From Ideonella sp. (lineage in GTDB: Bacteria; Pseudomonadota; Gammaproteobacteria; Burkholderiales; Burkholderiaceae_C), in NCBI GenBank assembly GCA_015075545.1, contig JABTUC010000006.1, forward strand, positions 1-64,000: a stretch of 64,000 nucleotides of DNA, written 5' to 3'. The translations under genes and the position numbers were made by a program. Below are positions 1-33,982 of this stretch, piece by piece. The number at the start of each line of letters is the position of its first letter. The stretch's first letter is position 1. The notes under the pieces are model-generated. The model did no database searches, was not told the DNA's origin, and saw only the letters and a program-made list of their open reading frames with translations.

Positions 1-831
1 CGCGGCGGGCGCTTCGACTACGCGCTGGATGAGTCGAAGGCGCCGACGCGCGACGAAGTCTGGGGCGCCTTCGCCAAGGCGGCGAGCCACGACCTCACCG
101 ACGGCGAGGAAGTGCGCGACCTCGACTGGTTCAAGGAGAAGGGCTATCTGCTGCGCCCCTTCCCGCAGATCGACTGGTACATCTGGCCGGCGCTGACGCG
201 TCAGAAGCTGCGTTTCGAGATGCCCTACCAGGAGCGCATGACGCGGCACGGTCGCGAACTCGCCAACCGGCTGCACGAGACCGGCATCATGTGGTGGGAC
301 AGGCAGCTCGCCGAGTACGAGTTCATGCCCACGTACGAGCGCTTCCCGGACATCTGGTCGGAGTACGCGCGCGAGTACGGGCGCGACCCGGAGGACTATC
401 CGTTCTGGGCGCTCACCGCGCGCTCGATGCAGTATAGCTGGGGCGCGAACGTCGGCCTGCCGATGATCCGCGAGGTGGCCGACAACATCGCCGGGCACCG
501 CGGCGTGATCCTGAACCGGACCATGGCGAAGAAGCTCGGCATCGCCGCGGGCGAGCGCGTGGTGATCGAGTCGGTCTCGGGAACCACGGAAGGCGAGGCG
601 GTGCTGCGCGAGGGCATCCGGCCCGACACCGTGCTGATGATCGGCCAGTTCGACCACTGGAAGCAGCCCTACGCGAAAGACCTGAAGTTGCCGAGCCTGA
701 ATTCGCTCACCGACCTGTCGGTGAAGCTGACCGACGGCACCGGCAGCGGCTCGGACCTGATGCGGGTGCGCATCCGCAAGGTGGGCGAGGCCGATGGCTG
801 GCGCACGCCGTCGAAGGACGTGGCGGCATGA
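1..831 (+). CDS. padB: Molybdopterin oxidoreductase catalytic subunit, C-terminal part (PadB-like)
   Basis: The frame is open from base 1, so 277 codons including the stop remain and the N-terminus with its active site lies upstream. The visible part is the tail of a DMSO-reductase-family subunit: its last 130 residues form the molybdopterin-dinucleotide-binding barrel, with NRTMAKKLGIAAGERVVIES as the usual signature. It overlaps the next gene by 4 bp (ATGA), and an Fe-S subunit and membrane anchor follow, so this is a three-subunit membrane oxidoreductase. A phenylacetate-CoA ligase sits immediately downstream. From that context I infer phenylacetyl-CoA:acceptor oxidoreductase (PadBCD, oxidation to phenylglyoxylate). 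The family is secure. The substrate is inference, and another DMSO-reductase-family oxidoreductase remains possible. Confidence 0.6.
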   Translation, partial: RGGRFDYALDESKAPTRDEVWGAFAKAASHDLTDGEEVRDLDWFKEKGYLLRPFPQIDWYIWPALTRQKLRFEMPYQERMTRHGRELANRLHETGIMWWDRQLAEYEFMPTYERFPDIWSEYAREYGRDPEDYPFWALTARSMQYSWGANVGLPMIREVADNIAGHRGVILNRTMAKKLGIAAGERVVIESVSGTTEGEAVLREGIRPDTVLMIGQFDHWKQPYAKDLKLPSLNSLTDLSVKLTDGTGSGSDLMRVRIRKVGEADGWRTPSKDVAA

Positions 832-1541
832 ACACGCCCGCCGCGGCCGGCAAGGCGAGCACCGGCGCCACGCCACGCTGGGGCATGGTGATCGACGTCA
901 ACCGCTGCGTCGGCTGCCAGACCTGCACCATCGCCTGCAAGCACGCCAACGACACCCCGCCGGAGGTGCAGTGGCGCAAGGTGATCGACGTCGAACAGGG
1001 CACGTTCCCGGACGTCGAACGTTTCTTTCTCGTCACCGGCTGCCAGCATTGCGCGGAGCCGCCCTGCGTGCCGGTCTGTCCCACCGGCGCGACGCGCCAG
1101 CGCGAGGACGGGCTCGTCACCATGGCCTACGACGAGTGCATCGGCTGCGGCTACTGCGCGGTGTCCTGCCCCTACCAGGCGCGCACCATCGTGCACGAGG
1201 GACGCGGCTACTTCGGCGCGCTGACGCGGCAGGAGAAGGCGACCGCGCACCCGGACCGGATCGGCGTGGCGCAGAAGTGCACCTTCTGCGTCGACCGCAT
1301 CGACGCCGGCACCGCCAAGGGTCTGACGCCGGGCGTCGACCCCGAGGCCACGCCGGCGTGCGTCAACTCGTGCATCGCGCAGGCGCTGGCGTTCGGCGAC
1401 GTCGACGATCCGAACAGCAACGTGTCGCAGTTGCTGGCCAACAACCAGCACTTCCGCATGCACGAGGAGCTCGGCACCGGGCCCAACTTCCACTACCTGT
1501 GGGACGCGCAGCGCGACGGTTCCGACGGAGAGAAGTCATGA
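828..1541 (+). CDS. padC: Four-cluster 4Fe-4S ferredoxin subunit (PadC/DmsB-like)
   Basis: This 237-residue electron-transfer subunit of the molybdoenzyme carries four cysteine groups: C27/C30/C33/C37, C72/C75/C80/C84, C104/C107/C110/C114 and C151/C154/C178/C182. That is the four-[4Fe-4S] pattern of DmsB/NrfC/PhsB-type subunits. It would pass electrons from the catalytic subunit to the membrane anchor. The ATG overlaps the stop of the upstream gene and the stop overlaps the downstream start (ATGA both times), so the three subunits are translationally coupled. No signal peptide is visible, as expected for a partner that travels with a Tat-exported catalytic subunit or stays cytoplasmic. Assignment to the phenylacetyl-CoA system rests on context. 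Confidence 0.65.
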   Translation: MNTPAAAGKASTGATPRWGMVIDVNRCVGCQTCTIACKHANDTPPEVQWRKVIDVEQGTFPDVERFFLVTGCQHCAEPPCVPVCPTGATRQREDGLVTMAYDECIGCGYCAVSCPYQARTIVHEGRGYFGALTRQEKATAHPDRIGVAQKCTFCVDRIDAGTAKGLTPGVDPEATPACVNSCIAQALAFGDVDDPNSNVSQLLANNQHFRMHEELGTGPNFHYLWDAQRDGSDGEKS

Positions 1542-2383
1542 GCTACGGCCCGAACCCGTGGCAGCAGTTGCACTGGGACGCGCGCGCGGCCGGCAACTTC
1601 ATGGGCGGCGGCGCCGGCACCGGGTTGCTGATCGCCACCGTGGCGTTCGGTGCGGCCGGTGGCCTGCGCCTGCTGGCGCTCGGGCTGGCGATCGCGCTGG
1701 TCGGCGCCGGCCTGCTGTGCGTGTGGGCCGAGATCGGGCGGCCGTGGCGCGCGCTCAACGTGTTCATCAATCCGCGCACGTCGTGGATGTCGCGCGAGGC
1801 CGCGGTCGCGCCGCTGCTGATGGGCAGCGCGGCGCTGGCATGGCTGGGCGTCGACGCGGCGGCGTGGGTCGCAGCGTTGCTGGCGCTGGTGTTCCTCTAC
1901 TGCCAGGCGCGCATCCTGCGCGCCTCGCGCGGCATTCCGGCGTGGCGCGAGCCGCTGACGGTGCCGTTGATCGTGCTGACGGGCCTGAGCGAAGGCACCG
2001 GGTTGTACGCGGCGCTGTCGGTGCTGTGGGGCCAGCCGGACGCGGCAGCGGCCTTCGCGCTCGCCGCGTTGCTGCCGCTGCGTACCGCGCTGGCCTTTGC
2101 CTGGCACCGCCGTGTCGCGCGTGCGCTGCGTCCTGCGGCGGCGCGCGCGCTCGCGCACTGCCGCCTCGCGTCGCGCGTCGCCGGGCCGCTGCCGCTGGCC
2201 CTGGCGCTGGCCGTGCTGCTGCTGCCGCTGCCCGCGGGCTGGGCCGCTGCGCTGCTGGCGCTGGCCGGCGTGCTCGCGCTGGCCGGCGGCGCCTGGTTCA
2301 AGTACGCGCTGATCACGCGCGTGGCGTTCAACCAGGGTTTCGCATTGCCGCACCTGCCGGTGCGCGGCGTCCCCCGCGGCTAG
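1538..2383 (+). CDS. padD: NrfD/DmsC-like membrane anchor subunit (PadD-like)
   Basis: The product has 281 residues, with about eight hydrophobic helices rich in Leu and Ala from residue 25 to the end. It matches the size and layout of the quinone-reactive anchor subunits of DMSO-reductase-family complexes. Its likely role is to hold the two upstream subunits on the membrane and hand electrons to the quinone pool. The ATG at 1538 overlaps the padC stop; longer frames that start upstream of it would run through padC and are not used. A 13-bp gap separates it from the phenylacetate-CoA ligase, so it belongs to the same operon. The specific pad name is inferred from this neighbourhood. Confidence 0.6.
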   Translation: MSYGPNPWQQLHWDARAAGNFMGGGAGTGLLIATVAFGAAGGLRLLALGLAIALVGAGLLCVWAEIGRPWRALNVFINPRTSWMSREAAVAPLLMGSAALAWLGVDAAAWVAALLALVFLYCQARILRASRGIPAWREPLTVPLIVLTGLSEGTGLYAALSVLWGQPDAAAAFALAALLPLRTALAFAWHRRVARALRPAAARALAHCRLASRVAGPLPLALALAVLLLPLPAGWAAALLALAGVLALAGGAWFKYALITRVAFNQGFALPHLPVRGVPRG

Positions 2384-2396
2384 GCGCAGGTTGACC

Positions 2397-3722
2397 ATGC
2401 TCGCCGCCACCGCTGCCCGCACGCAGGTCGGCCTGCACCCCGAGGTGGAGACCATGCCGCGCGAGCGACTGGCCGCGCTGCAACTGCAGCGGCTGCGGCA
2501 GACGCTCGGGCGTGCCTGGCGGCTGCCGTGGCAGCGCGACCGGCTGCGCGCGGCGGGCCTCGACGCGCCGGGCGACCTGCACTCGCTCGACGAGTTGGGC
2601 GCGCTGCCGTTCATGGTGAAGGCCGATCTGCGCGACCAGTACCCGTTCGGCCTCTTCGCGCAGCCGGTGTCGGAGCTGGCGCGGCTGCACGCCTCGTCGG
2701 GCACCACCGGCAAGCCCACCGTGGTGGGCTACAACGCCGCCGACCTCGACACCTGGGCCGAGCTGATGGCGCGCACGCTGCACTGCGCCGGCGCGCGCCG
2801 CGGCGACATCGTGCACAACGCCTACGGCTACGGCCTGTTCACCGGCGGCCTGGGCATGCACGCCGGCGCCGAGCGGCTCGGTGCGGTGGTGGTGCCGGCC
2901 TCGGGCGGCGGCACCGAGCGCCAGGTGGCGCTGATCATGGATTTCGGTGCGCGCGTGCTGTGCGCCACGCCGTCGTACGCGCTGGCGATCGCCGAGGTGG
3001 CCGAAGCGCAAGGCATCGATCTGCGCCAGAGCAAGCTGCGCGTGGGGCTGTTCGGCGCCGAGCCGTGGAGCGAGCCGATGCGCCGCGAGATCGAGGCACG
3101 GCTGCCGGTGAAGGCGATCGACAACTACGGCCTGTCGGAGATCATGGGCCCGGGCGTCGCGGTCGAATGCGAGCAGCAGGACGGCCTGCACGGCTGGGAG
3201 GACCACTTCCTGTTCGAGGTGGTCGACCCCGACACCCAGGCGCCGCTGCCCGAGGGCGAAGCCGGCGAGCTGGTGATCACCACGCTCACCAAGCAGGCGC
3301 TGCCGATGCTGCGCTACCGCACGCGCGACATCACGCGCCTCACGCGCGAGCCGTGCGACTGCGGGCGCACGCACGCGCGGCTGCTGCGCGTGAGCGGCCG
3401 CAACGACGACATGCTGATCGTGCGCGGCATCAACGTGTTCCCGTCGCAGATCGAAGCCGTGCTGCTCGGGCGCGAGAGGCTCGCGCCGCACTACCAGCTC
3501 GTGCTCGACCGACACGGCAGCCTCGACCACGTGACGCTCGAGGCCGAGGCCGCGCCCGGCGTCGGCGCGGGCCAGTGGGAAGGCGTGGCGCGCGACGTGG
3601 CGCATCGCATCAAGTCATTGATCGGCATCACGGTCGATGTGGTGGTTCGCGAGCCCGGTGCGCTGCCGCGCTCGCAGGGCAAGGCGGTGCGCGTGCGCGA
3701 CCTGCGGCCCAAGGGAGCCTGA
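2397..3722 (+). CDS. padJ: Phenylacetate-CoA ligase (PaaK/PadJ family)
   Basis: This 441-residue AMP-forming ligase has the short PaaK-type length, not the roughly 520 residues of benzoate-CoA ligases. The phosphate-binding loop SSGTTGKPT begins at residue 100. YGLSE and YRTRD core motifs follow, with a GRNDDMLIVRGINVFP hinge typical of phenylacetate-CoA ligases. It would activate phenylacetate with ATP and CoA, making the substrate of the oxidoreductase encoded just upstream. The start is the ATG at 2397; a TTG two codons earlier (2391) is a weaker alternative. Four bases separate it from hcrC. Its family is clear. That it serves the anaerobic pad route instead of aerobic paa is inferred from the neighbours, since no paa oxygenase genes are present. 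Confidence 0.82.
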   Translation: MLAATAARTQVGLHPEVETMPRERLAALQLQRLRQTLGRAWRLPWQRDRLRAAGLDAPGDLHSLDELGALPFMVKADLRDQYPFGLFAQPVSELARLHASSGTTGKPTVVGYNAADLDTWAELMARTLHCAGARRGDIVHNAYGYGLFTGGLGMHAGAERLGAVVVPASGGGTERQVALIMDFGARVLCATPSYALAIAEVAEAQGIDLRQSKLRVGLFGAEPWSEPMRREIEARLPVKAIDNYGLSEIMGPGVAVECEQQDGLHGWEDHFLFEVVDPDTQAPLPEGEAGELVITTLTKQALPMLRYRTRDITRLTREPCDCGRTHARLLRVSGRNDDMLIVRGINVFPSQIEAVLLGRERLAPHYQLVLDRHGSLDHVTLEAEAAPGVGAGQWEGVARDVAHRIKSLIGITVDVVVREPGALPRSQGKAVRVRDLRPKGA

Positions 3723-3726
3723 AACG

Positions 3727-4257
3727 ATGAGACTGCTGAATCTGTTGGTCAACGGCCGCAAGCACGCGGCCGCGGCGCGCGACTCGGCGACGCTGCTCGA
3801 GGTGCTGCGCGAAACGCTGCAGCTCACCGGCACCAAGCAGGGCTGCGACGGCGGCGAGTGCGGTGCCTGCACCGTGCTGGTCGACGGCGAGCCGCGGCTG
3901 GCGTGCATCACGCTGGCCGCGTCGGTCGAAGGGCACGCGGTCGAGTCGATCGAAGCGCTCGCCGCGCAGGGCCGGCTGGCCGCGCTGCAGCGCGCGTTCC
4001 ACGAGAAGCTCGGCGCGCAGTGCGGCTTCTGCACGCCCGGCATGGTGATGGCGGCCGAGGCGCTGCTGCGCCGCGAACCGCAGCCGAGCGAAGAGCAGAT
4101 CCGCGCCGCGCTGGCGGGCAACCTGTGCCGCTGCACCGGCTACGTCAAGATCATCGAGTCGGTGCAGGCGGCCGCGCAGTGGCGAGGCGAGGCTGCCCGA
4201 GCGTCGTGTGAAGCCGCCGCGCCTGCAGGCTCGGCCATCGGCAAGGAGCGCGCATGA
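3727..4257 (+). CDS. hcrC: 4-Hydroxybenzoyl-CoA reductase, 2x[2Fe-2S] gamma subunit
   Basis: This is the small iron-sulfur subunit of a xanthine-oxidase-family enzyme, 176 residues long. The plant-ferredoxin-type cluster is bound by C40/C45/C48/C60 and the second cluster by C99/C102/C134/C136 (the GNLCRCTGY motif). The last 20 residues are an Ala-rich tail. Electrons from ferredoxin would pass through these clusters to the molybdenum subunit. The gene order small, large, FAD subunit (C-A-B), and the special cysteine insert of the third subunit, identify the complex as 4-hydroxybenzoyl-CoA reductase and not a generic CO dehydrogenase-type hydroxylase. It overlaps hcrA by 4 bp. Confidence 0.85.
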
Positions 4258-6632
4258 AGCTCGAAGACGTCCATCTCACGCGCGAGCCGGCACCGGCCAC
4301 GCACTCGGTCGGCGTGCCGCGGCCGCTGGTCGACGGCGTCGACAAGGTCAGCGGGCGTGCGCGCTACACCGCCGACCTGCCGTTCCCCGGCGCGCTGGTC
4401 GGCCGCATCTTCCGCAGCCCGGTGGCGCACGGCATCGTGCGCCGCATCGACGCCACGCGTGCGCTCATGCTACCGGGCGTGCGCGCCATCGTCACCGGTG
4501 CCGACTTCAGCGCGCCGTACGGCGTGATCCCGATCGCGCAGAACGAGTGGCCGATGGCTCGCGAGCGCGTGCGCTACCGCGGCGAGCCGCTGTTCGCGGT
4601 GGCCGCCGACGATGCCGTCGCTGCCGAGGCGGCGCTCGCCGCGGTGGAGTTCGAGATCGAGCCGCTGCCGGCGTACTTCGACGCCGACGCCGCGCGCGCG
4701 AGCGACGCGGTGCTGCTGCACGACAAGAAGGCGGGCAACATCGAGCGCAGCGTCGAGCAGGACTTCGGCGACGTCGACGGCGGCTTCGCCGCGGCCGACC
4801 TGGTGATGGAGCGCACCTACGAATGCGCCGAGGTCGCGCACGGCCAGATCGAGCTGAACTGCTCGGTCGCCCAATGGGACGGCGAGCGCCAGCAGTTGAC
4901 GATCCACTCGGTGACGCAGGTGCCGTACTACCTGCACCTGATGCTGGCGCAGACGCTCGGGCTCGACAGCTCGCAGATCCGCGTCGTCAAGCCGTTCGTC
5001 GGCGGCGGCTTCGGCCACCGCGTCGAACCGCTGAACTTCGAGCTGGTGGCCGGCGCGCTGGCGCGCGCCGCCGGCGGCACCGTCAAGCTCGAGCAGTCGC
5101 GCGAGGACTCGTTCCTCACGCACCGCGGCCGGCCGCAGACGCGCACGCGGCTGAAGATCGGCCTCACCAAGACCGGGCGCATCACCGCGGTGGAGGCCGA
5201 AGTGGTGCAGCGCGGCGGCGCCTACGCCGGCTACGGCCTGGTGACGATCCTCTACGCCGGCTCGCTGCTGCACGCGCTGTACATGGTGGGGGCGTCGCGC
5301 TACCGCGGCTATCGGGTGTACGCCAACCTGCCGCCGTGCGGCGCGATGCGCGGCCACGGCGCGGTCAACGTGCGCTTCGCGTTCGAGTCGCTGCTCGACG
5401 AGATGGCTGGCGAGCTGAACCTCGACCCGTTCGCGCTGCGGCGCGCCAACCTGATCGTGCCGCCGTACCGCACGCTCAACGATCTGCAGGTCAACTCCTA
5501 CGGCATCCCGGCGTGCCTCGACGCGGTGGAGCGCGCCTCGCTCTGGCGCGAGCGCCGCGGCAAGCTGGCGGGCAAAGGGCCGCTCAAGCGCGGCCTGGGC
5601 ATGGCGTGCTCGCACTACGTGTCGGGCTCGGCCAAGCCGGTGCACTGGAGCGGCGAGCCGCACGCGGTGATCAACCTCAAGCTCGACTTCGACGGCGGCA
5701 TCACCATCCTCACCGGCGCCTCCGACATCGGCCAGGGCAGCTCCACCCTGCTGACGCAGATCGTCGCCGAGGTGCTGCTGCTGCCGATGGGGCGCATCCG
5801 AGTCGTCGCCACCGACAGCGCGCTGACGCCCAAGGACAACGGCTCGTACTCGTCGCGCGTTTCGTTCATGGTCGGCAACGCCGCGCTGCGTGCCGCGCAG
5901 GCGATGAAGGAGGTGCTCGTCAACGCGGCGGCCAAGCGGCTCGAGGTCAGCCCCGCCGACATCGACTGGCAGGGCGAGCGTTGCGGCGTCATCGGCACCG
6001 ACCGCCAGATGGATTTTGCGCAGTGCGTGCAGGCCGCGCTGGTCGACACCGGCACGCTCACCGTCAAGGGCGCGTGGTCGACGCCGCCCGAGACGCAAGG
6101 CGGCAAGTTCCGCGGCGCGGCGGTGGGCTCGAGCGCCGGCTTCTCGTACGCGGCGCAGGTGGTCGAAGTCGAGGTCGACGAAGACACCGGCGACGTGCGC
6201 GTCGTCAAGGTGTGGATCGCGCACGACTGCGGCCGCGCCATCAACCCGCTGGCGGTGCAGGGCCAGGTGCAAGGCGCGATCTGGATGGGCATGGGCCAGG
6301 CGCTGAGCGAGGAGACGCAGTACCACCAGGGCCTGCCGTTGCGGCCCAACTTCCTCGACTACCGCATTCCGACGATCGCCGACTCGCCGCCGATCGAGGT
6401 CACGTTGGTCGAGAGCATCGACCCGCTCGGGCCGTTCGGCGCCAAGGAGGCGAGCGAAGGCGGCCTGCACGGTGTGCCGCCGGCGGTGGCCGCAGCGGTG
6501 GCCGACGCGCTCGGCCTGCGACTGCACGCGACGCCGATCACACCCGACCGCCTGCTCGAGGCGATCCATCAGCGCCGGCGCGAAGACAAGCTCGCCGCCG
6601 CGCGCGCGGCCAAGCAAACGATCAAGGGGTGA
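4254..6632 (+). CDS. hcrA: 4-Hydroxybenzoyl-CoA reductase, molybdenum alpha subunit
   Basis: The product has 792 residues, the normal length for the molybdopterin-binding subunit of the xanthine oxidase family. GGGFGHR begins at residue 250, and the conserved glutamate of the GAKEASEGG motif near the C-terminus is E732. The enzyme reductively removes the phenolic hydroxyl of 4-hydroxybenzoyl-CoA to give benzoyl-CoA, using reduced ferredoxin. This feeds 4-hydroxyphenylacetate, p-cresol, 4-hydroxybenzoate and coumarate routes into benzoyl-CoA. It overlaps hcrC by 4 bp and is followed after 5 bp by hcrB. Long open frames on the opposite strand are GC-driven shadows. The family is certain, and the substrate call follows mainly from the HcrB cysteine insert. 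Confidence 0.86.
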   Translation: MKLEDVHLTREPAPATHSVGVPRPLVDGVDKVSGRARYTADLPFPGALVGRIFRSPVAHGIVRRIDATRALMLPGVRAIVTGADFSAPYGVIPIAQNEWPMARERVRYRGEPLFAVAADDAVAAEAALAAVEFEIEPLPAYFDADAARASDAVLLHDKKAGNIERSVEQDFGDVDGGFAAADLVMERTYECAEVAHGQIELNCSVAQWDGERQQLTIHSVTQVPYYLHLMLAQTLGLDSSQIRVVKPFVGGGFGHRVEPLNFELVAGALARAAGGTVKLEQSREDSFLTHRGRPQTRTRLKIGLTKTGRITAVEAEVVQRGGAYAGYGLVTILYAGSLLHALYMVGASRYRGYRVYANLPPCGAMRGHGAVNVRFAFESLLDEMAGELNLDPFALRRANLIVPPYRTLNDLQVNSYGIPACLDAVERASLWRERRGKLAGKGPLKRGLGMACSHYVSGSAKPVHWSGEPHAVINLKLDFDGGITILTGASDIGQGSSTLLTQIVAEVLLLPMGRIRVVATDSALTPKDNGSYSSRVSFMVGNAALRAAQAMKEVLVNAAAKRLEVSPADIDWQGERCGVIGTDRQMDFAQCVQAALVDTGTLTVKGAWSTPPETQGGKFRGAAVGSSAGFSYAAQVVEVEVDEDTGDVRVVKVWIAHDCGRAINPLAVQGQVQGAIWMGMGQALSEETQYHQGLPLRPNFLDYRIPTIADSPPIEVTLVESIDPLGPFGAKEASEGGLHGVPPAVAAAVADALGLRLHATPITPDRLLEAIHQRRREDKLAAARAAKQTIKG

Positions 6633-6637
6633 GCGCG

Positions 6638-7624
6638 ATGCGACCGATCCAAGATCTCGAGCTGCAGCGCCCGACCACGCTGGCCGAAGCGGCCACGCTG
6701 CTGGCCGCCGGCGGCGCGCGTGCGATCGCCGGCGGCACCGACCTGGTGCCCAACATGCGCCGCGGCCTGGTCGACGCCGAGCGCCTGGTCGACCTCGGCG
6801 CGCTGCCGGGCTTCGCCGCCATCGAGCAGCAACCTGGCGGCGGCTGGCGCATCGGCGCCGGCGTCACGCTGAGCGCGCTCGCGCGGCATGCCGGCCTGGC
6901 CGCCGCGCTGCCCGCGCTGGCGCAGGCGGCGTCGCAGGTGGCCGGCCCCGCGCACCGCAGCGCGGCCACGCTCGGCGGCAACCTGTGCCAGGACACGCGC
7001 TGCATCTTCTACAACCAGAGCGAGTGGTGGCGCGCCGCCAATGGCTACTGCCTCAAGCGCGGCGGCGATGTGTGCCACGTGGCGCCGCAGGGCAAGCGCT
7101 GCCACGCCGCCTACGAGGGCGACGTCGCGCCCGCGCTGATCGCGCTGGGCGCCGAGGTCGAGGTGGTCAGCGCCGGCGCCACGTCGCGCCGGCTGCTGGC
7201 GTCGATCTACCGCGACGACGGCGCCGCGCACCTGACGCTGAACTCGAGCGAACTCGTCGTCGCCGCGATCGTGCCGGCGCCGGCGCGCGGTTCGGCCAGC
7301 GGCTACCGCAAGGCCAGGGCGCGCGCGGCGATGGACTTTCCGCTGGCCGGCGTCGGCGTCGCGCTGCGCATGGAAGGCGGCATGCTGGCGGCGCTGAAGG
7401 TCGGCATCAGCGGCACCAATTCGCACCCGGTGGCGCTCGAGGGCACCGAGGCGCTGCTGGGCAAGCGGGTCGACGACGCGCTGCTTGCGGCGCTGGGCAA
7501 GCTGGTGAGCAAGCAGGTGTCGCCGATGCGCAGCGCGGTGACGCAATCGAACCACCGGCGCCTCGTCGCGGTGGTGACGGCGCAGCGGCTGGTGCGCGAA
7601 CTGGCGGAGGGCTCCACGAAATGA
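6638..7624 (+). CDS. hcrB: 4-Hydroxybenzoyl-CoA reductase, FAD and [4Fe-4S] beta subunit
   Basis: This is the flavin subunit, 328 residues. The N-terminal half carries the FAD-binding motifs (AGGTDLVP near residue 31 and TLGGNLCQD near 111). An insert absent from ordinary CO dehydrogenase/xanthine oxidase flavin subunits holds C122, C138, C146 and C155. As I recall, these four positions bind the additional [4Fe-4S] cluster in the structurally studied Thauera enzyme. That cluster lets electrons run in the reductive direction from low-potential ferredoxin. The insert is the strongest single argument that this complex is 4-hydroxybenzoyl-CoA reductase. The gene overlaps the following flavoprotein gene by 4 bp. 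Confidence 0.88.
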   Translation: MRPIQDLELQRPTTLAEAATLLAAGGARAIAGGTDLVPNMRRGLVDAERLVDLGALPGFAAIEQQPGGGWRIGAGVTLSALARHAGLAAALPALAQAASQVAGPAHRSAATLGGNLCQDTRCIFYNQSEWWRAANGYCLKRGGDVCHVAPQGKRCHAAYEGDVAPALIALGAEVEVVSAGATSRRLLASIYRDDGAAHLTLNSSELVVAAIVPAPARGSASGYRKARARAAMDFPLAGVGVALRMEGGMLAALKVGISGTNSHPVALEGTEALLGKRVDDALLAALGKLVSKQVSPMRSAVTQSNHRRLVAVVTAQRLVRELAEGSTK

Positions 7625-9975: not shown

Positions 9976-9995
9976 AACGAGGAGCACCGAAAGCC

Positions 9996-12113
9996 ATGTT
10001 GTGCCCCAAGTGTCACCAGCCGCTGGCCGATGACGGCGACGGCCCCTACATCTGCTGCGCCGGTGGTGCCGTGCAGTGGCAGTGCAGCGGCTGCGGCAAG
10101 GTCAGCGAAGGCTTTGCGTTCCCGTACGGTCGCTGCCCGCAGTGCGGCGGCACGCTCGCGCTGCGCGACGCCGCGGCCGGCAACGTGAGCGCCGACGAGG
10201 CGTCGCTGGCCGCCATCCGCAGCGCCTTCGAGATCGAGCTCGGCGGGCGCGCCTTCTACCAGCGCGCCGCGGCCGATTGCGCCGACGAGACGCTGCGCGC
10301 GCTGTTCCGCCGCTTCGCGGTGATGGAAGGCGAGCACATGGAGACGCTGGCGCGGCGCTACCACGTCGACGTGCCCGACCCGCCCGCGCTGTTCCAGCTC
10401 GAGACGGTGGGCTACTTCGCCGGCGTCGACAGTCGCATCGACGAGCCGGCCGACCTGCTGCGCATCGCGATCGGTTTCGAGAAGCGCGCCGCCGAGTTCT
10501 TCGCCGAGCGCGCGCTCGCCGCCGACGAGGGCTCGGCCGAACAACGGCTGTACGACGAGCTGGCGGCCGAAGAACGCGAGCACTCGCAGATCCTCGCCGC
10601 CGAGCTGGCGCGCTGGCACCAGGATCGCCCCGGCCTCTATGGAGTCGATGCGCCCGCCACCGGCGTGCCGCTGAACGGCGCGCACCTGCTGCTGGCCGAG
10701 CACGACGCGGCCGCGATCGCGATCGAGTGCGACGGCAAGCGCATGACCTACGGCGAGCTGCGCGACCGCGTCGCCCGCGCCGGCGCGCTGTGGCGCCAGC
10801 GCGGGCTGCGCCCGGGCGATCGCGTGGCGGTCAAGCTGCCCGACGGCTTCGACTGGGTGATCGCCTGGCTCGGCGCCATCTGGGCCGGCGGCATCGCGGT
10901 CGGCGTCAACCCCAAGATCCCGGCGCCCGAGTGGCGCTTCATCCTCGACGAGGCCGGCTTCGACGTCATCATCGCCGACTCGTCCGACGACACGCCGGAG
11001 CCATGGCGCTCGCGCGTGGTCGGCGTCGAGGAGGGGCGGCACGCGGTCAGCGTCACGCCACCGATGCCGGCGGTGTCGGTGCCCGAGGAGACGCCGGCAT
11101 TCTGGGTGCACTCGTCGGGCACGTCGGGCAAGCCCAAGGCGGTGGTGCACGCGCACCGCTGCGTGCGCGAGATCGGTCGCGTCGCGGCCGAGCGCTTCGG
11201 CATCAAGCCGGGCGACCGGCTGTTCGCCAGCTCGCGGCTGTTCTTCGCCTACCCGCTGACCAACCTGCTGCTGGCGGGGCTGCGGCTGGGCGCGACGCTG
11301 ATCCTCGATGCGCAGTGGCCCAACGCCAAGAGCGTCGCTGCGACGGTGGCGCGCACGCGCCCCACCGTGTTGTTCAGCGTGCCGTCGCTGTATCGCGACA
11401 TGCTGCACAACGAGCTGGCGCCGGGGCTGGCGGCGGCGGGCGTGCGGCTGTGCGTGTCGGCCGGCGAGGCGCTGCCGCCGCAGTTGCGCGAGCGCTGGGT
11501 GGCCGCCGCCGGCCTGCCGATCGCCGACGGCTACGGCGCCTCCGAGACGCTGGTGCTGGTGATGCTGGCGCAGGACGCGCGCGGCTTCGCGCCGTCGCCG
11601 GGGGTCGAGGTGCGCGCGCTCGACGACGTGGCGCCGGGCGTGCCGACGCGGCTGCTGATCCGCACGCCGACGCTGGCGTTAGGCTATCTAGACCGCCCGC
11701 AGGCGCAGGCCGAGACCTTCCGCGACGGCGCGTTCTGCCCGGCCGACCTGTGGCAGCGCACCGCCGACGGCTTCTGGCAGTTCGCCGGCCGCGAGGACTC
11801 GCTGGTCAAGATCCGCGGCCGCTGGGTCAACCTGATCGACCTCGGCGAGCAGCTCGCCGCGCAGGCGCGCGAGGTGGTCGAGGGCGCCGCGGTGTGCGTG
11901 CCCGACGCCGACGGCGTCGACGCGGTGGCGTACTTCTACGTCAGTGCGAACGCCGCCGGCGTGCAGGCCGCGCTGCTGGCGCACACCGCCACACTGCCGC
12001 AGCACCAGCGCCCGCGCTGGCTGCATGCGATCGACGCGCTGCCGCGCGGCCCCACCGGCAAGCTGCTGCGGCGCAAGCTGCTCGAGCTGCATCAAGACAT
12101 GGGAGCGGTATGA
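9996..12113 (+). CDS. Rubrerythrin-like domain fused to an aryl-CoA ligase
   Basis: The product has 705 residues in three parts. Residues 1-55 hold CxxC pairs (C3/C6, C30/C33, C47/C50) plus C20-C21, like a rubredoxin or zinc ribbon. Residues 65-210 form a ferritin-like four-helix module with E81 (or E79), E111xxH114, E162 and E193xxH196 as di-iron ligands. From about residue 225 to the end runs a benzoate-CoA-ligase-type AMP-forming enzyme with SSGTSGKPK near 373, YGASET, and PRGPTGKLLRRKL at the end. No in-frame ATG, frameshift or stop separates the parts, so the fusion looks real. The ligase probably activates a hydroxybenzoate or related acid for the upstream reductase. The ferritin module may scavenge peroxide or oxygen, which is inference. 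It overlaps the next gene by 4 bp (ATGA). Confidence 0.82.
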   Translation: MLCPKCHQPLADDGDGPYICCAGGAVQWQCSGCGKVSEGFAFPYGRCPQCGGTLALRDAAAGNVSADEASLAAIRSAFEIELGGRAFYQRAAADCADETLRALFRRFAVMEGEHMETLARRYHVDVPDPPALFQLETVGYFAGVDSRIDEPADLLRIAIGFEKRAAEFFAERALAADEGSAEQRLYDELAAEEREHSQILAAELARWHQDRPGLYGVDAPATGVPLNGAHLLLAEHDAAAIAIECDGKRMTYGELRDRVARAGALWRQRGLRPGDRVAVKLPDGFDWVIAWLGAIWAGGIAVGVNPKIPAPEWRFILDEAGFDVIIADSSDDTPEPWRSRVVGVEEGRHAVSVTPPMPAVSVPEETPAFWVHSSGTSGKPKAVVHAHRCVREIGRVAAERFGIKPGDRLFASSRLFFAYPLTNLLLAGLRLGATLILDAQWPNAKSVAATVARTRPTVLFSVPSLYRDMLHNELAPGLAAAGVRLCVSAGEALPPQLRERWVAAAGLPIADGYGASETLVLVMLAQDARGFAPSPGVEVRALDDVAPGVPTRLLIRTPTLALGYLDRPQAQAETFRDGAFCPADLWQRTADGFWQFAGREDSLVKIRGRWVNLIDLGEQLAAQAREVVEGAAVCVPDADGVDAVAYFYVSANAAGVQAALLAHTATLPQHQRPRWLHAIDALPRGPTGKLLRRKLLELHQDMGAV

Positions 12114-12952
12114 GTGCCGCGCTGACCCAAGCTGCTGCCGGCGTCGCGACCGCGGCGCCGCTTGTCGCCACGCAGCGCAGCGGCGGCGTGCTGGTGGTGA
12201 CGCTGCAGCGCGCGCCGGTCAACGCGATCAACGACGCGTTGCTGGCGCAGCTGGAAGCCGTACTCGACGAGGTCGAGGCCGACGACGCGCTGGCGGTGCT
12301 GCACCTGCGCAGCGCCTGCAAGGTGTTCTGCGCCGGCGCCGATCTGAGCCTGATCCGCTCGTGCGTGGCCACCGCGCAGGGCCGCGAGGCGATGCTCGCC
12401 ACCGTGCGCCGCATGCAGCGCGTGTTCGCGCGCCTGGAGGCGCTCGACTGCGTGACGCTGGCCGAGCTCGGCGGCGCCGCGCTCGGCGGCGGCTTCGAGC
12501 TGGCGCTGGCGTGCGACCTGCGCATCGCGGCCGACGACGTTCGCGTGGGCCTGCCCGAGGTCGGCCTCGGCTTGCTGCCCGCGGCCGGCGGCACGCAACG
12601 GCTGACGCGGCTGGTGGGCCACGGCCTGGCGCGCCGCCTGATCCTCGGCGCCGAGACGCCCGACGGCGCCGCGGCGCGCGCGCTCGGCCTGGTGCAGTGG
12701 GCGGTGCCGCGCGAGCGGCTGGCCGACGAGGCCGCTGCGCTGGCGCGCCGCTACGGTGCGATGCCGCGGCTGGCGTTCGCCGAGAACAAGCGCTGCATCG
12801 CTTTGGCCGGCGTGCCCGGCGAGGTAGGCTACGCCGCCGAGATCGACGCCACGCGGCGGCTGTACCAGCATCCAGAAACCAAGCGCCGTGTCGCGGCCTT
12901 CCTCGACAAGCGAGTCGACGCCGGCGCCAACAACCCCAAGGAGAAACCATGA
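12110..12952 (+). CDS. Enoyl-CoA hydratase/isomerase family protein
   Basis: This is a 280-residue crotonase fold. Both catalytic glutamate motifs are intact: the GGGFELALACD segment and LPEVGLGLLPAAGGTQRL. An active hydratase is therefore expected. The first 25 residues are a variable Ala-rich extension. It is translationally coupled to the ligase upstream and to the short-chain dehydrogenase downstream (ATGA overlaps on both sides). Ligase, hydratase and dehydrogenase together would form part of a beta-oxidation-like sequence on an alicyclic or aryl-propanoid CoA ester. The sequence resembles the cyclohexene-carboxyl-CoA hydratase BadK type as well as general fatty-acid hydratases, so the substrate is unresolved. 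Confidence 0.8.
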   Translation: MSAALTQAAAGVATAAPLVATQRSGGVLVVTLQRAPVNAINDALLAQLEAVLDEVEADDALAVLHLRSACKVFCAGADLSLIRSCVATAQGREAMLATVRRMQRVFARLEALDCVTLAELGGAALGGGFELALACDLRIAADDVRVGLPEVGLGLLPAAGGTQRLTRLVGHGLARRLILGAETPDGAAARALGLVQWAVPRERLADEAAALARRYGAMPRLAFAENKRCIALAGVPGEVGYAAEIDATRRLYQHPETKRRVAAFLDKRVDAGANNPKEKP

Positions 12953-13698
12953 CATCGCTGAAAGACAAACTCGCCGTCGTCACCGGCGCGGCCTCCGGCA
13001 TCGGCGCCGCGGTGGCGGGCAAGCTCGCGCAGGCCGGTGCCACCGTGATCGTGGCCGACGTGCAGGCCGACAAGGGCGAGACGCGCGCCGCCACGCTGCG
13101 CGCGGCCGGCCACAAGGCGCAGTTCGTGCGCGTCGACATGACCGATGCCGCATCGGTGACGGCGTTCGCGCAGGACGTGCAGACGCGCTTCGGCACGCCC
13201 GACGTGTTGGTCAACGGCGCCGGCTGGGGCACCACGCACCCGTTCTGGGAGGGCACGCCCGAGCTGTGGGACAAGATCATCAGCCTCAACTTCGTCGGCC
13301 CGATGCGGCTGACCAAGGCCTTCGTGCAGGCGATGGTCCAGCGCGGTAGCGGCAAGATCGTCAACATCGCCAGCGACGCCGGCCGCGTCGGCAGCCTCGG
13401 CGAGACGGTGTACTCCGGCGCCAAGGGCGGCTTGATCGCGTTCACCAAGTCGCTGGCGCGCGAAACCGCGCGCTACGGCATCAGCGTCAACTGCGTCTGC
13501 CCCGGCCCGACCGACACGCCGCTGATGGCCGCGGTGCCCGAGAAGGTGACCGAGGCGCTGAAGAAGGCGATCCCGCTGCGCCGCCTGGGCAAACCCGAGG
13601 AGGTGGCCGATGCGGTGCTGTTCTTCAGCGGCGACACCGCGAGCTACGTGACCGGCCAGGTGCTCAGCGTCAGCGGCGGTCTGACGATGGCTGGGTGA
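12949..13698 (+). CDS. BadH-like short-chain dehydrogenase (hydroxyacyl-CoA type)
   Basis: This classical SDR has 249 residues, with the GAASGIG nucleotide motif and catalytic S142, Y155 and K159. The stretch IVNIASDAGRVGS and the C-terminal end GQVLSVSGGLTMAG closely resemble, from memory, 2-hydroxycyclohexanecarboxyl-CoA dehydrogenase (BadH) of Rhodopseudomonas palustris. The presumed reaction is NAD-dependent oxidation of a 3-hydroxyacyl-CoA to the 3-keto ester, the step after the hydratase encoded just upstream with an ATGA overlap. A role in alicyclic acid or aryl side-chain degradation is inferred. A repeat element begins 5 bp after its stop codon. Confidence 0.78.
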   Translation: MTSLKDKLAVVTGAASGIGAAVAGKLAQAGATVIVADVQADKGETRAATLRAAGHKAQFVRVDMTDAASVTAFAQDVQTRFGTPDVLVNGAGWGTTHPFWEGTPELWDKIISLNFVGPMRLTKAFVQAMVQRGSGKIVNIASDAGRVGSLGETVYSGAKGGLIAFTKSLARETARYGISVNCVCPGPTDTPLMAAVPEKVTEALKKAIPLRRLGKPEEVADAVLFFSGDTASYVTGQVLSVSGGLTMAG

Positions 13699-14295: not shown

Positions 14296-14781
14296 ATGGA
14301 CTACACGCTGCCGCTGTTCCTTGCCCATGCCATCGCGCTGGAGCGCGAGGCCGCCGAGCGCTACCTCGAACTGGCCGACATGATGGAGGCGCACCGCAAC
14401 GACGAGGTGGCGGCGCTGTTCCGCGACATGGTGCGCTACTCGCGCATGCACCACGACTCGATCGTCGAGCGCGCCAGCGGCACCAAGCTGCCCGCGCTGG
14501 GGCCGTGGGACTACGCCTGGCGCTATCCGCCCGAGGTCGGCGGCGAGGAGGCGTTCGACCCCAGCCTCAACGCCTACGACGCGCTGCGCTATGCGCGCGA
14601 GAACGAAAACCGCGCGATGCAGTACTACAGCGACGTCGGCCTGTCGTCGAGCGACCCCGCGGTCAAGCGCATGGCCGCCGAGTTCGCCGCCGAGGAGACC
14701 GAGCACGTGCAGGCACTCGACGACTGGCTGGCGCGCGTCGAGCGCCCGTCGGCGCCGTGGGCCAAAGACCCGGAACGATGA
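14296..14781 (+). CDS. Ferritin-like (rubrerythrin-family) protein, one ligand motif degenerate
   Basis: This is a stand-alone four-helix protein of 161 residues. Candidate di-iron ligands are E16 or E18 on helix A, E102 or E104 on helix C and E134xxH137 on helix D. Helix B reads YSRMHHDS (about 48-55), so the expected ExxH glutamate is missing and two histidines stand there. This suggests an altered or single-metal site. No rubredoxin domain is attached. It is the second ferritin-like protein of the operon after the ligase fusion, and it follows the DUF2249 gene. Possible roles are oxygen or peroxide protection of the reductases, or a dedicated oxidoreductase. It could also be a structural relic. 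Confidence 0.72.
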   Translation: MDYTLPLFLAHAIALEREAAERYLELADMMEAHRNDEVAALFRDMVRYSRMHHDSIVERASGTKLPALGPWDYAWRYPPEVGGEEAFDPSLNAYDALRYARENENRAMQYYSDVGLSSSDPAVKRMAAEFAAEETEHVQALDDWLARVERPSAPWAKDPER

Positions 14782-27361: not shown

Positions 27362-28936
<1,575 letters not shown>

Positions 28937-28953
28937 GGTCTTTGCCTTACTGC

Positions 28954-29418
28954 TCAACGCGTGAACTGGATCTGCCCCTCGGGCAGCAGGTACATCACGA
29001 GTGCGCGCCCGCCGCTGACGGTGGGCACGTGGTCGCTGCCCGCCGGGTAGACGCACCAGCCGGCGCCGTGGCCGTCGAAGCGGGCGTCGCCGGTCAGCGG
29101 CATCACGAGGTCGATCTCGCCCAGCGGATGCACGTGGTGACCGCCGGCGATCGAGTCCATGTCGACCACGTCGACCGAGAAGCGGGCGGTGTCGTCGGCG
29201 GGCTTGACGACGCGGCCGTAGCGGATGCCCGCGTGCTCGCGATGGCACATCCAGCCCGCGGCGACGCCGTCGACGCAGGCCAGACGCAAGCGTCGATAGC
29301 TGGCGCTTTGCGGCCCGTGCTCGCGATTGAGCCAGCGCTGCAACTCGCCATCGAGCGCGCGGCCGGCGAGGCCCTGCGTGAACTCGACGATCAACTGACG
29401 AAACTGCTCGATCGACAT
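28954..29418 (-). CDS. DUF4863 family protein of the box cluster
   Basis: The product has 154 residues and looks cupin-like: the stretch GGHHVHPLGEIDLVMP contains a histidine pair and a glutamate suited to metal binding, and GRALVMYLLPEGQIQF closes the fold. DUF4863 genes are regularly found between boxR and bclA. Some members are linked to 4-hydroxylaminobenzoate lyase, as far as I recall; the role in benzoate metabolism is unknown. It is the first gene of the long minus-strand operon and starts 128 bp from boxR. Confidence 0.7.
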   Translation of the reverse strand: MSIEQFRQLIVEFTQGLAGRALDGELQRWLNREHGPQSASYRRLRLACVDGVAAGWMCHREHAGIRYGRVVKPADDTARFSVDVVDMDSIAGGHHVHPLGEIDLVMPLTGDARFDGHGAGWCVYPAGSDHVPTVSGGRALVMYLLPEGQIQFTR

Positions 29419-29460
29419 GTCGTACCGGTGATCCTGTGGCTTCTGGGTCGTCGGGCTGCC

Positions 29461-29492
29461 TTGCGACGGAACGGCTTATGAATTATTGTGCG
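29461..29492 (+). promoter_or_regulatory. boxR promoter with overlapping BoxR-type operator
   Basis: TTGCGA (29461-29466), a 17-bp spacer and TATTGT (29484-29489) form a sigma-70-type promoter. The segment TGAATTATTGTGCG (29479-29492) overlaps the -10 and differs at only two positions from TGCATTATTGTGCA at the boxC promoter. The offset between -10 and operator is identical in both. This implies that BoxR controls its own gene. It is read from sequence; binding is inferred. Confidence 0.6.
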
Positions 29493-29504
29493 CGCCGGTG
29501 CCGG

Positions 29505-29534
29505 GTGATAGGCCGGGATTGCACCGACTGTCAA
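29505..29534 (-). promoter_or_regulatory. Candidate promoter for the DUF4863-bclA-liv-fcs operon
   Basis: On the minus strand a perfect TTGACA (29534-29529) is followed after 18 bp by TATCAC (29510-29505), or after 17 bp by CTATCA. The -10 is weak. A single TGCA (29520-29523) lies in the spacer and the degenerate BoxR-type operator lies about 13 bp downstream. It points at the DUF4863 start 87 bp away. Confidence 0.4.
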
Positions 29535-29546
29535 GCACTTTACTGC

Positions 29547-30548
29547 ATGAGTCGCTTCATCGCGCCGCGTCCGAACCGACCGAAGGCCAAGGTTGCCACC
29601 GCTGGCGCCCGGAAGAAATCGGCTCCGACCCGGGCACCGGGCGTCGCCGCCAAAGGGCTGGCCCCGGCGGGCCTGCGCGCCGACGGCCACGACCGCCTGC
29701 TGGTGGCGCTCGGCGAGCGCGTGCGCAGCCTGCGCGCGCGCCGCGGGTTGACGCGCAAGGCGGTGGCACTGGCCGCCGGCGTGTCCGAACGTCACCTCGC
29801 GAACCTGGAGTACGGCACCGGCAACGCGTCGATCCTGATCCTGCAGCAGGTGGCGCGCGCGCTGCAGTGCCCGCTGGCCGAGTTGGTGGGCGACGTGAGC
29901 ACGTCGTCGCCCGAGTGGTTGCTGATCCGCGAGCTGCTCGAGACGCGCAGCGAGGCCGATCTGCGGCGCGCGCGCATCGCGCTGGGCGAACTGTTCGGCA
30001 CCCGCGCCGATGCCGGGCGCGGCCGGCGCATCGCGCTGATCGGGCTGCGCGGGGCGGGCAAGTCGACGCTCGGCCAGATGCTGGCCGACGACCTGGAATT
30101 CCCGTTCGTCGAGCTGTCGCGCGAGATCGAGAAGTTCGCCGGCTGCACCATCGCCGAGATCCACGACCTGTACGGCACCAACGCCTATCGGCGCTACGAG
30201 CGGCGTGCGCTGGAGGAGGCGATCCAGATCTACCCCGAGGTGGTGATCGCCACGCCGGGCGGCATCGTGTCGGATGCCGCCACGTTCAACCAGTTGCTCG
30301 CGCACTGCACCACCGTGTGGCTGAAGGCCAACCCCGAAGACCACATGCTGCGCGTGGCCGCGCAGGGCGACGTGCGGCCGATCGCCGCCAGCGGCGAGGC
30401 GATGGACGACCTGAAGCGCATCCTGGCCGGCCGCCTGTCGTTCTACGCCAAGGCCGACCTGAGCTTCGACACCAGCGGCCAGCCGCTCGAGCAGGCGTTT
30501 CAGGGCCTGCGCGCGCGGGTGCGCGCGGCGATCGGCCTTCCAGCCTGA
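29547..30548 (+). CDS. boxR: BoxR, XRE-type regulator with shikimate-kinase-like domain
   Basis: The product has 333 residues. Residues 50-105 hold a helix-turn-helix of the XRE type (LTRKAVALAAGVSERHLANL). A shikimate-kinase-like domain follows from about 160, with Walker A GLRGAGKST beginning at residue 166. This two-domain form is the BoxR regulator, a benzoyl-CoA-responsive repressor of box genes in Azoarcus. The ATG at 29547 gives an N-terminal basic tail; frames starting upstream would extend across the promoter. It sits between the two box operons, and its own promoter has the same operator as boxC. Confidence 0.9.
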   Translation: MSRFIAPRPNRPKAKVATAGARKKSAPTRAPGVAAKGLAPAGLRADGHDRLLVALGERVRSLRARRGLTRKAVALAAGVSERHLANLEYGTGNASILILQQVARALQCPLAELVGDVSTSSPEWLLIRELLETRSEADLRRARIALGELFGTRADAGRGRRIALIGLRGAGKSTLGQMLADDLEFPFVELSREIEKFAGCTIAEIHDLYGTNAYRRYERRALEEAIQIYPEVVIATPGGIVSDAATFNQLLAHCTTVWLKANPEDHMLRVAAQGDVRPIAASGEAMDDLKRILAGRLSFYAKADLSFDTSGQPLEQAFQGLRARVRAAIGLPA

Positions 30549-30557
30549 GCCCCGAGC

Positions 30558-30572
30558 GCGGCCTTCGGCCGC
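30558..30572 (+). terminator. Short GC hairpin after boxR
   Basis: GCGGCC, loop TTC, GGCCGC follows the boxR stop by 9 bp. There is no U-tract. It may weakly separate boxR from boxCBA, which have their own promoter 45 bp further on. Confidence 0.3.
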
Positions 30573-30616
30573 CCGGTTTGCCGCCGCGGGGGCACCGGCG
30601 CACAGTAGCGATCGCC

Positions 30617-30648
30617 TTGACAGTCGCGCGCACATGCATTATTGTGCA
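30617..30648 (+). promoter_or_regulatory. boxC promoter with BoxR-type operator
   Basis: A perfect -35 TTGACA (30617-30622), a 17-bp spacer and TATTGT (30640-30645) form a strong promoter. TGCATTATTGTGCA (30635-30648) is a TGCA-N6-TGCA element laid over the -10, the layout I recall for BoxR operators in Azoarcus. Repressor binding here would block polymerase. Pattern seen; binding inferred. Confidence 0.72.
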
Positions 30649-30676
30649 CGTAATGGGGTGGAAACGCCTCTGATAG

Positions 30677-30690
30677 TGCATTGCAATGCA
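30677..30690 (+). promoter_or_regulatory. Second BoxR-type operator, perfect palindrome
   Basis: TGCATTGCAATGCA is a perfect 14-bp palindrome with outer TGCA boxes 6 bp apart. It lies about 25-40 bp after the expected transcription start of boxC and 36 bp before its ATG, so it could strengthen repression by cooperative binding. Confidence 0.62.
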
Positions 30691-30726
30691 TATCGCGCGT
30701 CGCGCGCCCTACCGCAGGAGACCGGC

Positions 30727-32385: not shown

Positions 32386-32404
32386 CCCACCCACTGAACA
32401 GGAC

Positions 32405-33838
<1,434 letters not shown>

Positions 33839-33841
33839 TGA

Positions 33842-33919
33842 CCCACCCCCGAAGCGGCCTGGCGGCCGCCTCCCCCTCCAGGGGGCAACACCAGCGGCCC
33901 GGCAGAGCCGGGTCCGCGG
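33842..33919 (+). repeat. Two-part intergenic repeat, compact copy
   Basis: Blocks A (33842-33886) and B (33888-33919) match 13704-13748 and 13831-13862 with only a few substitutions, but without the 82-bp hairpin segment between them. Block A contains CCCCCTCCAGGGGG, which can fold on itself. It lies in the 144-bp boxB-boxA gap. The remainder of the gap contains nothing recognisable beyond the boxA ribosome site region. Confidence 0.7.
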
Positions 33920-33982
33920 CGGCCGCTTGGTTGCGCTGGTTCATGCGTCGCGAGTCGCGCGCAGCGCGGTGGAGCAACTGAG

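Follow-up and report, generated by a model that had tools for sequence, protein, structure and literature searches.

Why should a ferritin-like module of the rubrerythrin superfamily form the N-terminus of an aryl-CoA ligase, and why within an operon for 4-hydroxybenzoyl-CoA reduction? The question is raised by one gene of the 64,000-nucleotide stretch of Ideonella sp. DNA analyzed here (the window). For bioremediation it is a practical question how O2-sensitive aromatic reductions proceed in facultative anaerobes exposed to oxygen, and the fusion, which a named strain also has, ties a putative di-iron module of the scavenger type covalently to substrate activation in a single expressible protein.

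Gene layout and distribution of the fusion

Open reading frame analysis of the window gave the gene as a single frame of 705 codons, with AGGAG at positions 9980-9984 ahead of its ATG (Table 1). From the N- to the C-terminus it encodes CxxC ribbons, a ferritin-like four-helix bundle and an aryl-CoA ligase. This composition had been proposed in the earlier note (CxxC ribbon, ferritin-like module, AMP-forming ligase) and is upheld by Pfam, the predicted model and the alignments. Residues 75-203 match the Pfam Rubrerythrin model (PF02915) with 25.9 bits (gathering cut-off 22.8, E 1.4e-5) and residues 238-565 match AMP-binding (PF00501) with 202.5 bits. The linker between them has a pLDDT below 50 at residues 216-222 of the predicted model, and its columns are gap-rich in an alignment of 39 fusions, which consists of the window protein and 38 full-length fusions with 60-91% identity to it. 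Excluded from this alignment were three loci cut by contig ends (L061, L064, and L066) and two in which the match begins at residues 27 and 72 (L063 and L067, respectively). The dN/dS ratio was below 1 for the ribbons, bundle, linker, and ligase in all five pairs, ranging from 0.105 to 0.52 for the bundle.

Table 1. Features of the window discussed in the text, with the evidence for each assignment
Feature	Positions	Strand	Evidence or remark
Molybdopterin oxidoreductase end, Fe-S protein, membrane anchor	1-2383		Cut by contig start
PaaK-type CoA ligase	2391..3722	+	TIGR02155 554 bits, below cut-off 646
hcrC, 2Fe-2S subunit of 4-hydroxybenzoyl-CoA reductase	3727..4257	+	TIGR03193 247.8 bits, cut-off 257.8
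hcrA, molybdenum subunit	4254..6632	+	TIGR03194 1152 bits, above cut-off 994.55
hcrB, FAD subunit	6629..7624	+	TIGR03195 397.4 bits, cut-off 404.55
Fused NfnA-NfnB-like flavoprotein (FNR + GltD-like), 784 aa	7621..9975	+	PRK12775 and 5jca matches
Rubrerythrin-like module + aryl-CoA ligase fusion, 705 aa	9996..12113	+	Open frame, Pfam, profile matches, 39-row alignment, predicted model
N-terminal Cys ribbons (C3xxC6, C20C21; C30xxC33-13-C47xxC50)	9996..10175	+	Alignment of fusions
Ferritin-like four-helix bundle with six-ligand di-iron site (predicted)	10191..10622	+	Pfam, predicted model, alignment, fold matches
Flexible linker, residues ~216-227	10641..10676	+	Low pLDDT, gap-rich alignment columns
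Aryl-CoA ligase module	10677..12110	+	Pfam, NCBIfam, alignment
Enoyl-CoA hydratase family (ECH1), overlaps the stop of the fusion	12110..12952	+	Profile match
BadH-like short-chain dehydrogenase	12946..13698	+	TIGR03206 281 bits, below cut-off 431
Second, separate ferritin-like protein (COG1633/2oh3 type)	14296..14781	+	Pfam
Box benzoate-CoA ligase	27362-29248	-	TIGR02262 758.5 bits, above cut-off
BoxC	30634-32385		Above NCBI cut-off
BoxB, di-iron benzoyl-CoA epoxidase	about 32405-33838		Above NCBI cut-off
BoxA	33983-35248		Above NCBI cut-off

Besides the window, 43 non-redundant loci contain the fused frame (37 fused loci among 40 from a contig search of genomes, and six further non-redundant ones), each stop-free from the bundle into the ligase, and a frameshift or assembly artifact is thereby ruled out. 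Neither of the two outcomes that could have undone the reading as one frame, a missed frameshift between residues 210 and 230 or homologs that are always split, was encountered. The fusion is genuine and conserved across some Burkholderiales that have genes for degrading aromatic acids at low oxygen. Among the record titles of the 37 fused loci, 32 give Burkholderiales or a taxon (family or genus) that we take to belong there, and the other five read Pseudomonadota (two), Proteobacteria, Gammaproteobacteria, and Anaerolineales. Almost the same module is present at the Anaerolineales locus (L049) and at an Aquabacterium locus (L051), and the former is probably contamination. One of the 37 is a named strain, Ramlibacter monticola KACC 19175 (L060), and the other 36 titles are those of MAGs or uncultured-type bins. 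The fusion is also present in two single-contig genomes (G022 and G299).

In the search of relatives, 6 of 60 genomes contained the full-length fusion, the source genome counted. Within the family, the module was matched in 16 of 299 genomes at E ≤ 1e-3, 14 of them at ≤ 2.6e-60 and the remaining two weakly. At the order level, there were two matches in 300 genomes (E ≤ 1e-20), and at E ≤ 1e-30 two in 369 genomes of the class and two in 398 of the phylum, the source genome being one of the two each time. An 18-kb locus (L062) contains two copies of the fusion, the second cut by the locus end, and at the start of another contig (L056:6-310) a partial extra match to the module precedes the fused one, possibly a tandem duplication.

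Predicted di-iron site, ribbons, and ligase

In the predicted model, the four helices of the bundle (residues 66-94, 98-122, 151-175, and 181-209) present the E, ExxH, E, ExxH ligands of a PF02915-type bundle, in agreement with the alignment. The six canonical positions are E81, E111, H114, E162, E193, and H196, each of which aligns with a Glu or His in 2fzf. Two more acids are E79, which aligns with K in 2fzf and with D in 2oh3, and E192, which aligns with M in 2fzf. The residues previously named as ligands (E79/E81, E111xxH114, E162, E193xxH196) are thus confirmed, with E79 as an acid additional to the six. All of these acids and histidines are invariant in 39 of 39 aligned full-length fusions, as are C20, C30, C33, C47, and C50, with C3, C6, and C21 nearly so. 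The same acids, histidines, and cysteines are invariant in a set of 34 modules, five of them stand-alone.

Classical rubrerythrins have a seventh ligand, provided by ExxE on helix C. The fusion reads E162-K-R-A165 there, with A165 invariant in the 39 rows, and the classical rubrerythrin of the host genome itself has E-T-H-E at the corresponding site (by eye). The fusion also lacks the C-terminal rubredoxin domain of the classical type, its ribbons being N-terminal. Given that the seventh ligand is missing, "rubrerythrin" is used here as a superfamily label only and peroxidase activity cannot be assumed for the site. The second ribbon (C30xxC33-13-C47xxC50) is rubredoxin-like, short-spaced and in the "reverse" (N-terminal) position, which is the arrangement of reverse-type rubrerythrins; it is invariant in the 39 rows, and in a profile comparison it matches the rubredoxin domain of rubrerythrin 1ryt weakly (E 0.08). 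The fused frames of L063 and L067, in which ribbons are partly or wholly unrecognized and no complete ribbon part is found, may reflect ribbon loss, divergence, or sequence error. L068 is without the first CxxC.

A structural zinc-binding role is conceivable for the ribbons, and the best fold matches of the bundle are ferritin-type and COG1633 proteins, with matches spread over ferritins. Both the cysteine-rich ribbons and this spread would suit a module that stores iron, or a zinc-ribbon scaffold for the binding of the ligase to Nfn or Hcr, with no turnover at the site. We regard this as quite improbable, since the ligand conservation exceeds the needs of a scaffold and nothing would seem to suggest a ferritin-type cage for a fusion of 705 residues.

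In the C-terminal half, the AMP-binding domain comes with the motif SSGTSGKPK, mostly invariant in the 39 fusions, and with the invariant K689, which we take to be the P-loop and the catalytic lysine of an AMP-forming (ANL) ligase. The best NCBIfam model is NF053567 (HbdA, 3-hydroxybenzoate-CoA ligase) with 311.5 bits versus a cut-off of 1000, and the benzoate-CoA ligase model TIGR02262 gives 249.6 versus 375.25. Considering the hcr neighbors and the nearest named ligase family, the product is most likely an aryl-CoA thioester derived from a hydroxybenzoate. Moreover, the Box cluster of the genome has its own benzoate-CoA ligase, so that the fused one is likely to serve another acid, e.g., hydroxybenzoate.

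This Box cluster (27362-35248) lies in the same window, about 20 kb from the reductive aryl-CoA genes. The source genome also has four matches to the BcrAD/BadFG family, in two clusters; this family is matched in 10 of 14 control genomes as well, and a benzoyl-CoA reductase can therefore only be presumed here. Taken together, the Box cluster and these matches lead us to expect benzoyl-CoA handling with oxygen and probably also without it. As the aerobic Box route is also encoded, the habitat of the host probably spans the boundary between oxic and anoxic conditions.

Operon neighborhood and other hosts of the module

The gene order of the window starts with the molybdopterin oxidoreductase end, the Fe-S protein, and the membrane anchor, presumably similar to PadBCD of phenylacetyl-CoA oxidation, followed by the PaaK-type ligase, hcrCAB, the Nfn-like gene, and the fusion. 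After it come enoyl-CoA hydratase, the BadH-like dehydrogenase, DUF2249, the second ferritin-like protein, a thioesterase-like gene (by eye), another enoyl-CoA hydratase, acyl-CoA dehydrogenase, and an NnrS-like gene (by eye). Conservation of the upstream part was counted where 4 kb or more of DNA precedes the fusion (28 non-redundant loci), using hits of more than 40% identity to the proteins of the window. The hcr genes were found upstream of the fusion at 16 of these loci and an Nfn-like gene at 14, with both at 7 and neither at 5, so 23 of 28 have either or both. When at least 7 kb upstream is required, hcr is present at 14 of 25 fused loci. Downstream, the hydratase and the dehydrogenase are each found at 23 of the 32 loci with at least 2.5 kb.

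The proximity to hcr put forward in the earlier note holds for the window, where HcrA is above its cut-off and HcrB and HcrC are just below theirs, but not as a strict tie, given the 16 of 28 informative loci. An obligate pairing with the Nfn-like gene is ruled out as well, both by its absence upstream at 14 of 28 loci and by the lack of a full match in four of the nine complete-fusion genomes searched. A match was found in 10 of the 14 genomes searched in all, and none at E up to 1e-100 in G004, G299, G002, and G129 (the assemblies of G002 and G129 comprise 460 and 420 contigs). Another complete-fusion genome, G022, has only the GltD-like part of the protein. Around the fusion of L052 there are neither hcr nor Nfn-like hits, and a neighbor reads as homogentisate dioxygenase (by eye). 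The second ferritin-like protein recurs in the fusion operon at many loci, and a distant relative of it in the source genome (L115) adjoins 2-oxoacid:ferredoxin oxidoreductase-like genes (by eye) and BcrAD-family genes.

The flavoprotein encoded upstream of the fusion is homologous to Nfn (NfnAB) over most of both NfnI subunits, aligning through residues 2-264 with 5jca_S and through residues 297-751 with 5jca_L. It matches positions 1-780 of the 1006 of PRK12775, and residues 3-214 of the fusion match positions 799-1005, with scores of 1416 and 282 bits for the two genes versus the score above 1895 expected from the single chain. The single chain itself was found elsewhere: G862 has flavoprotein and module in one frame of 996 codons, above the cut-off, and in G439 both share a frame of 1021 codons. 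The score of the L121 chain, which exceeds the cut-off, is 1980 bits. In addition, seven modules stand alone. Six of them (L088, L096, L099, L102, L103, and L123) adjoin an Nfn-like gene, and the seventh (L100) adjoins a pyruvate:ferredoxin oxidoreductase verified by Pfam. At L103, the Nfn-like gene and the module are followed by a gene whose product, by eye, has almost the N-terminal sequence of the L100 oxidoreductase, and the L099 module is beside genes resembling indolepyruvate:ferredoxin oxidoreductase (by eye). The stand-alone ribbon-rubrerythrin modules at L103:1451-4443 and L100:5812-10150 may be oxygen guards for the neighboring pyruvate:ferredoxin oxidoreductase. Since one domain thus occurs with different hosts (Nfn flavoprotein, none, ligase) in related operons, its partners can be compared experimentally.

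These settings bear on the possibility, raised in the earlier note, that the di-iron site acts on the CoA ester made by the ligase, as BoxB or PaaA do on theirs. The ligase would hand over its product in cis, and di-iron oxygenases show the pattern E, ExxH, E, ExxH as well. We nevertheless consider such a role very improbable, because the same invariant site is found in stand-alone modules outside hcr clusters (identical residues at L099, L100, L102, and L103, without an hcr hit and beside pyruvate:ferredoxin oxidoreductase or an Nfn-like gene), and because the genome has its own BoxABC, with BoxB 20 kb away. The best fold matches, to ferritin-type and COG1633 proteins, argue against it too.

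These sequence comparisons suggest a module that originally accompanied low-potential ferredoxin chemistry and later turned into the N-terminal part of a ligase. It may have evolved as an electron-accepting partner, in some lineages a C-terminal domain, of an Nfn-like NAD(P)H flavoprotein, and in Burkholderiales would have been captured by the adjacent ligase gene, at the N-terminal end of its product. A tree of 50 modules, built without L061, L063, L064, L066, and L067, requires a minimum of two label changes and recovers one origin of the fusion in 38% of bootstraps. In the AU test, a single clade of fusions was not rejected (p 0.38), and the data are compatible with a single fusion event. 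L098 is presumably a fusion cut by the contig end.

The capture might simply have joined two operon neighbors, co-producing or co-localizing independent proteins with no functional coupling. This would agree with the flexible linker at the junction and with G032, in which the operon is otherwise like that of the window. There (L096), the gene order runs through the Nfn-like gene to the module alone, its stop, a DUF2249-like start (by eye), and the contig end, and the nearest ligase (43-45%) is on another contig. However, 43 loci preserve the fused frame, with 60-91% identity to the window among the 38 aligned ones, and it is retained at the 5 of 28 loci with neither Nfn-like gene nor hcr upstream, and we find the absence of coupling rather unlikely.

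Proposed role and comparison with known systems

Our preferred reading, to which we assign a probability of about one half, is that the fusion would act as a reverse-type, six-ligand di-iron guard against peroxide or O2, tied to hydroxybenzoate activation beside 4-hydroxybenzoyl-CoA reductase. Reverse-type rubrerythrins have NADH-linked peroxidase/oxidase activity. Electrons from NAD(P)H would pass through the upstream Nfn-like protein, or from another reductant where this is absent, to the Cys4 ribbon and from there to the di-iron site, at which H2O2 and/or O2 would be reduced to water. The C-terminal half would meanwhile make the aryl-CoA thioester for the neighboring reductase, and we infer that the tether may hold the scavenger within the complex or microenvironment of the O2-sensitive enzymes. 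Removal of peroxide or oxygen near an O2-sensitive reductase, as first suggested in the earlier note, seems the likeliest role, and is supported by the other settings of the module, which elsewhere adjoins or is fused to an Nfn-like flavoprotein or adjoins pyruvate:ferredoxin oxidoreductase.

The covalent link to the committing step could also mean that the di-iron site or ribbon senses O2, peroxide, or the reductant pool, and toggles the ligase so that the reductive branch is entered only when it can be run. A redox gate of this kind would suit the occurrence of aerobic Box genes and hcr within one window, as well as the 14 of 28 informative fused loci without an upstream Nfn-like gene. Against it, stand-alone modules, which have no ligase, keep the identical invariant site, and both conservation and model confidence are low in the linker; overall, we think it unlikely. 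The more elaborate case, in which the module both scavenges the oxidant and reports the redox state to the ligase, switching the entry of hydroxybenzoate, appears a little more doubtful still. If true, this gated ligase would be a new oxygen control of anaerobic aromatic catabolism, exerted at one fused enzyme, and a guard domain would have moved from an electron-bifurcating flavoprotein onto the enzyme that commits hydroxybenzoate to the Hcr/benzoyl-CoA reductase branch.

As to precedents of the guard that we favor, no description of a rubrerythrin-CoA ligase fusion was found in the titles and abstracts of open-license PMC articles, among the matches listed, and nothing on PRK12775 was found in the open-license PMC literature. 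The closest known architecture is the "trifunctional" FNR-GltD-ferritin protein (PRK12775/NF009413), of which the module is the C-terminal part and the upstream gene the N-terminal part, with the difference that the gene border is shifted and that in the window the module is encoded with the ligase instead of the flavoprotein. With the benzoate-CoA ligase family and HbdA, the likeness is that TIGR02262 and NF053567 match the ligase module over its length, whereas the ligase of the window is below both cut-offs and carries an N-terminal di-iron module (predicted).

Reverse-type rubrerythrins have an N-terminal rubredoxin-like domain, and "short-spaced" refers to a range of 10-14 (PMC5114695). 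The CxxC-13-CxxC ribbon before the ferritin-like bundle resembles them and its spacing is inside that range, while C3xxC6 with C20C21, the absent seventh ligand, and the C-terminal ligase set the fusion apart. Rubrerythrin is covalently joined to another enzyme also in the [FeFe]-hydrogenase-rubrerythrin chimera HydR, for which H2 oxidation coupled to H2O2 reduction is described (PMC11926857); the partner there oxidizes H2 and can supply electrons, whereas the CoA ligase that is the partner in the window carries out no redox reaction. In Rub-Bfu, rubrerythrin genes are immediately downstream of the bifurcating enzyme, and rubrerythrin is thus likewise tied to an electron-bifurcating flavoenzyme, but the bifurcating family is Bfu, not Nfn, and no ligase is part of the system described (PMC9304861). 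Compared with these systems, the architecture of the fusion is built from known parts and is a variant of rubrerythrin-type fusion proteins.
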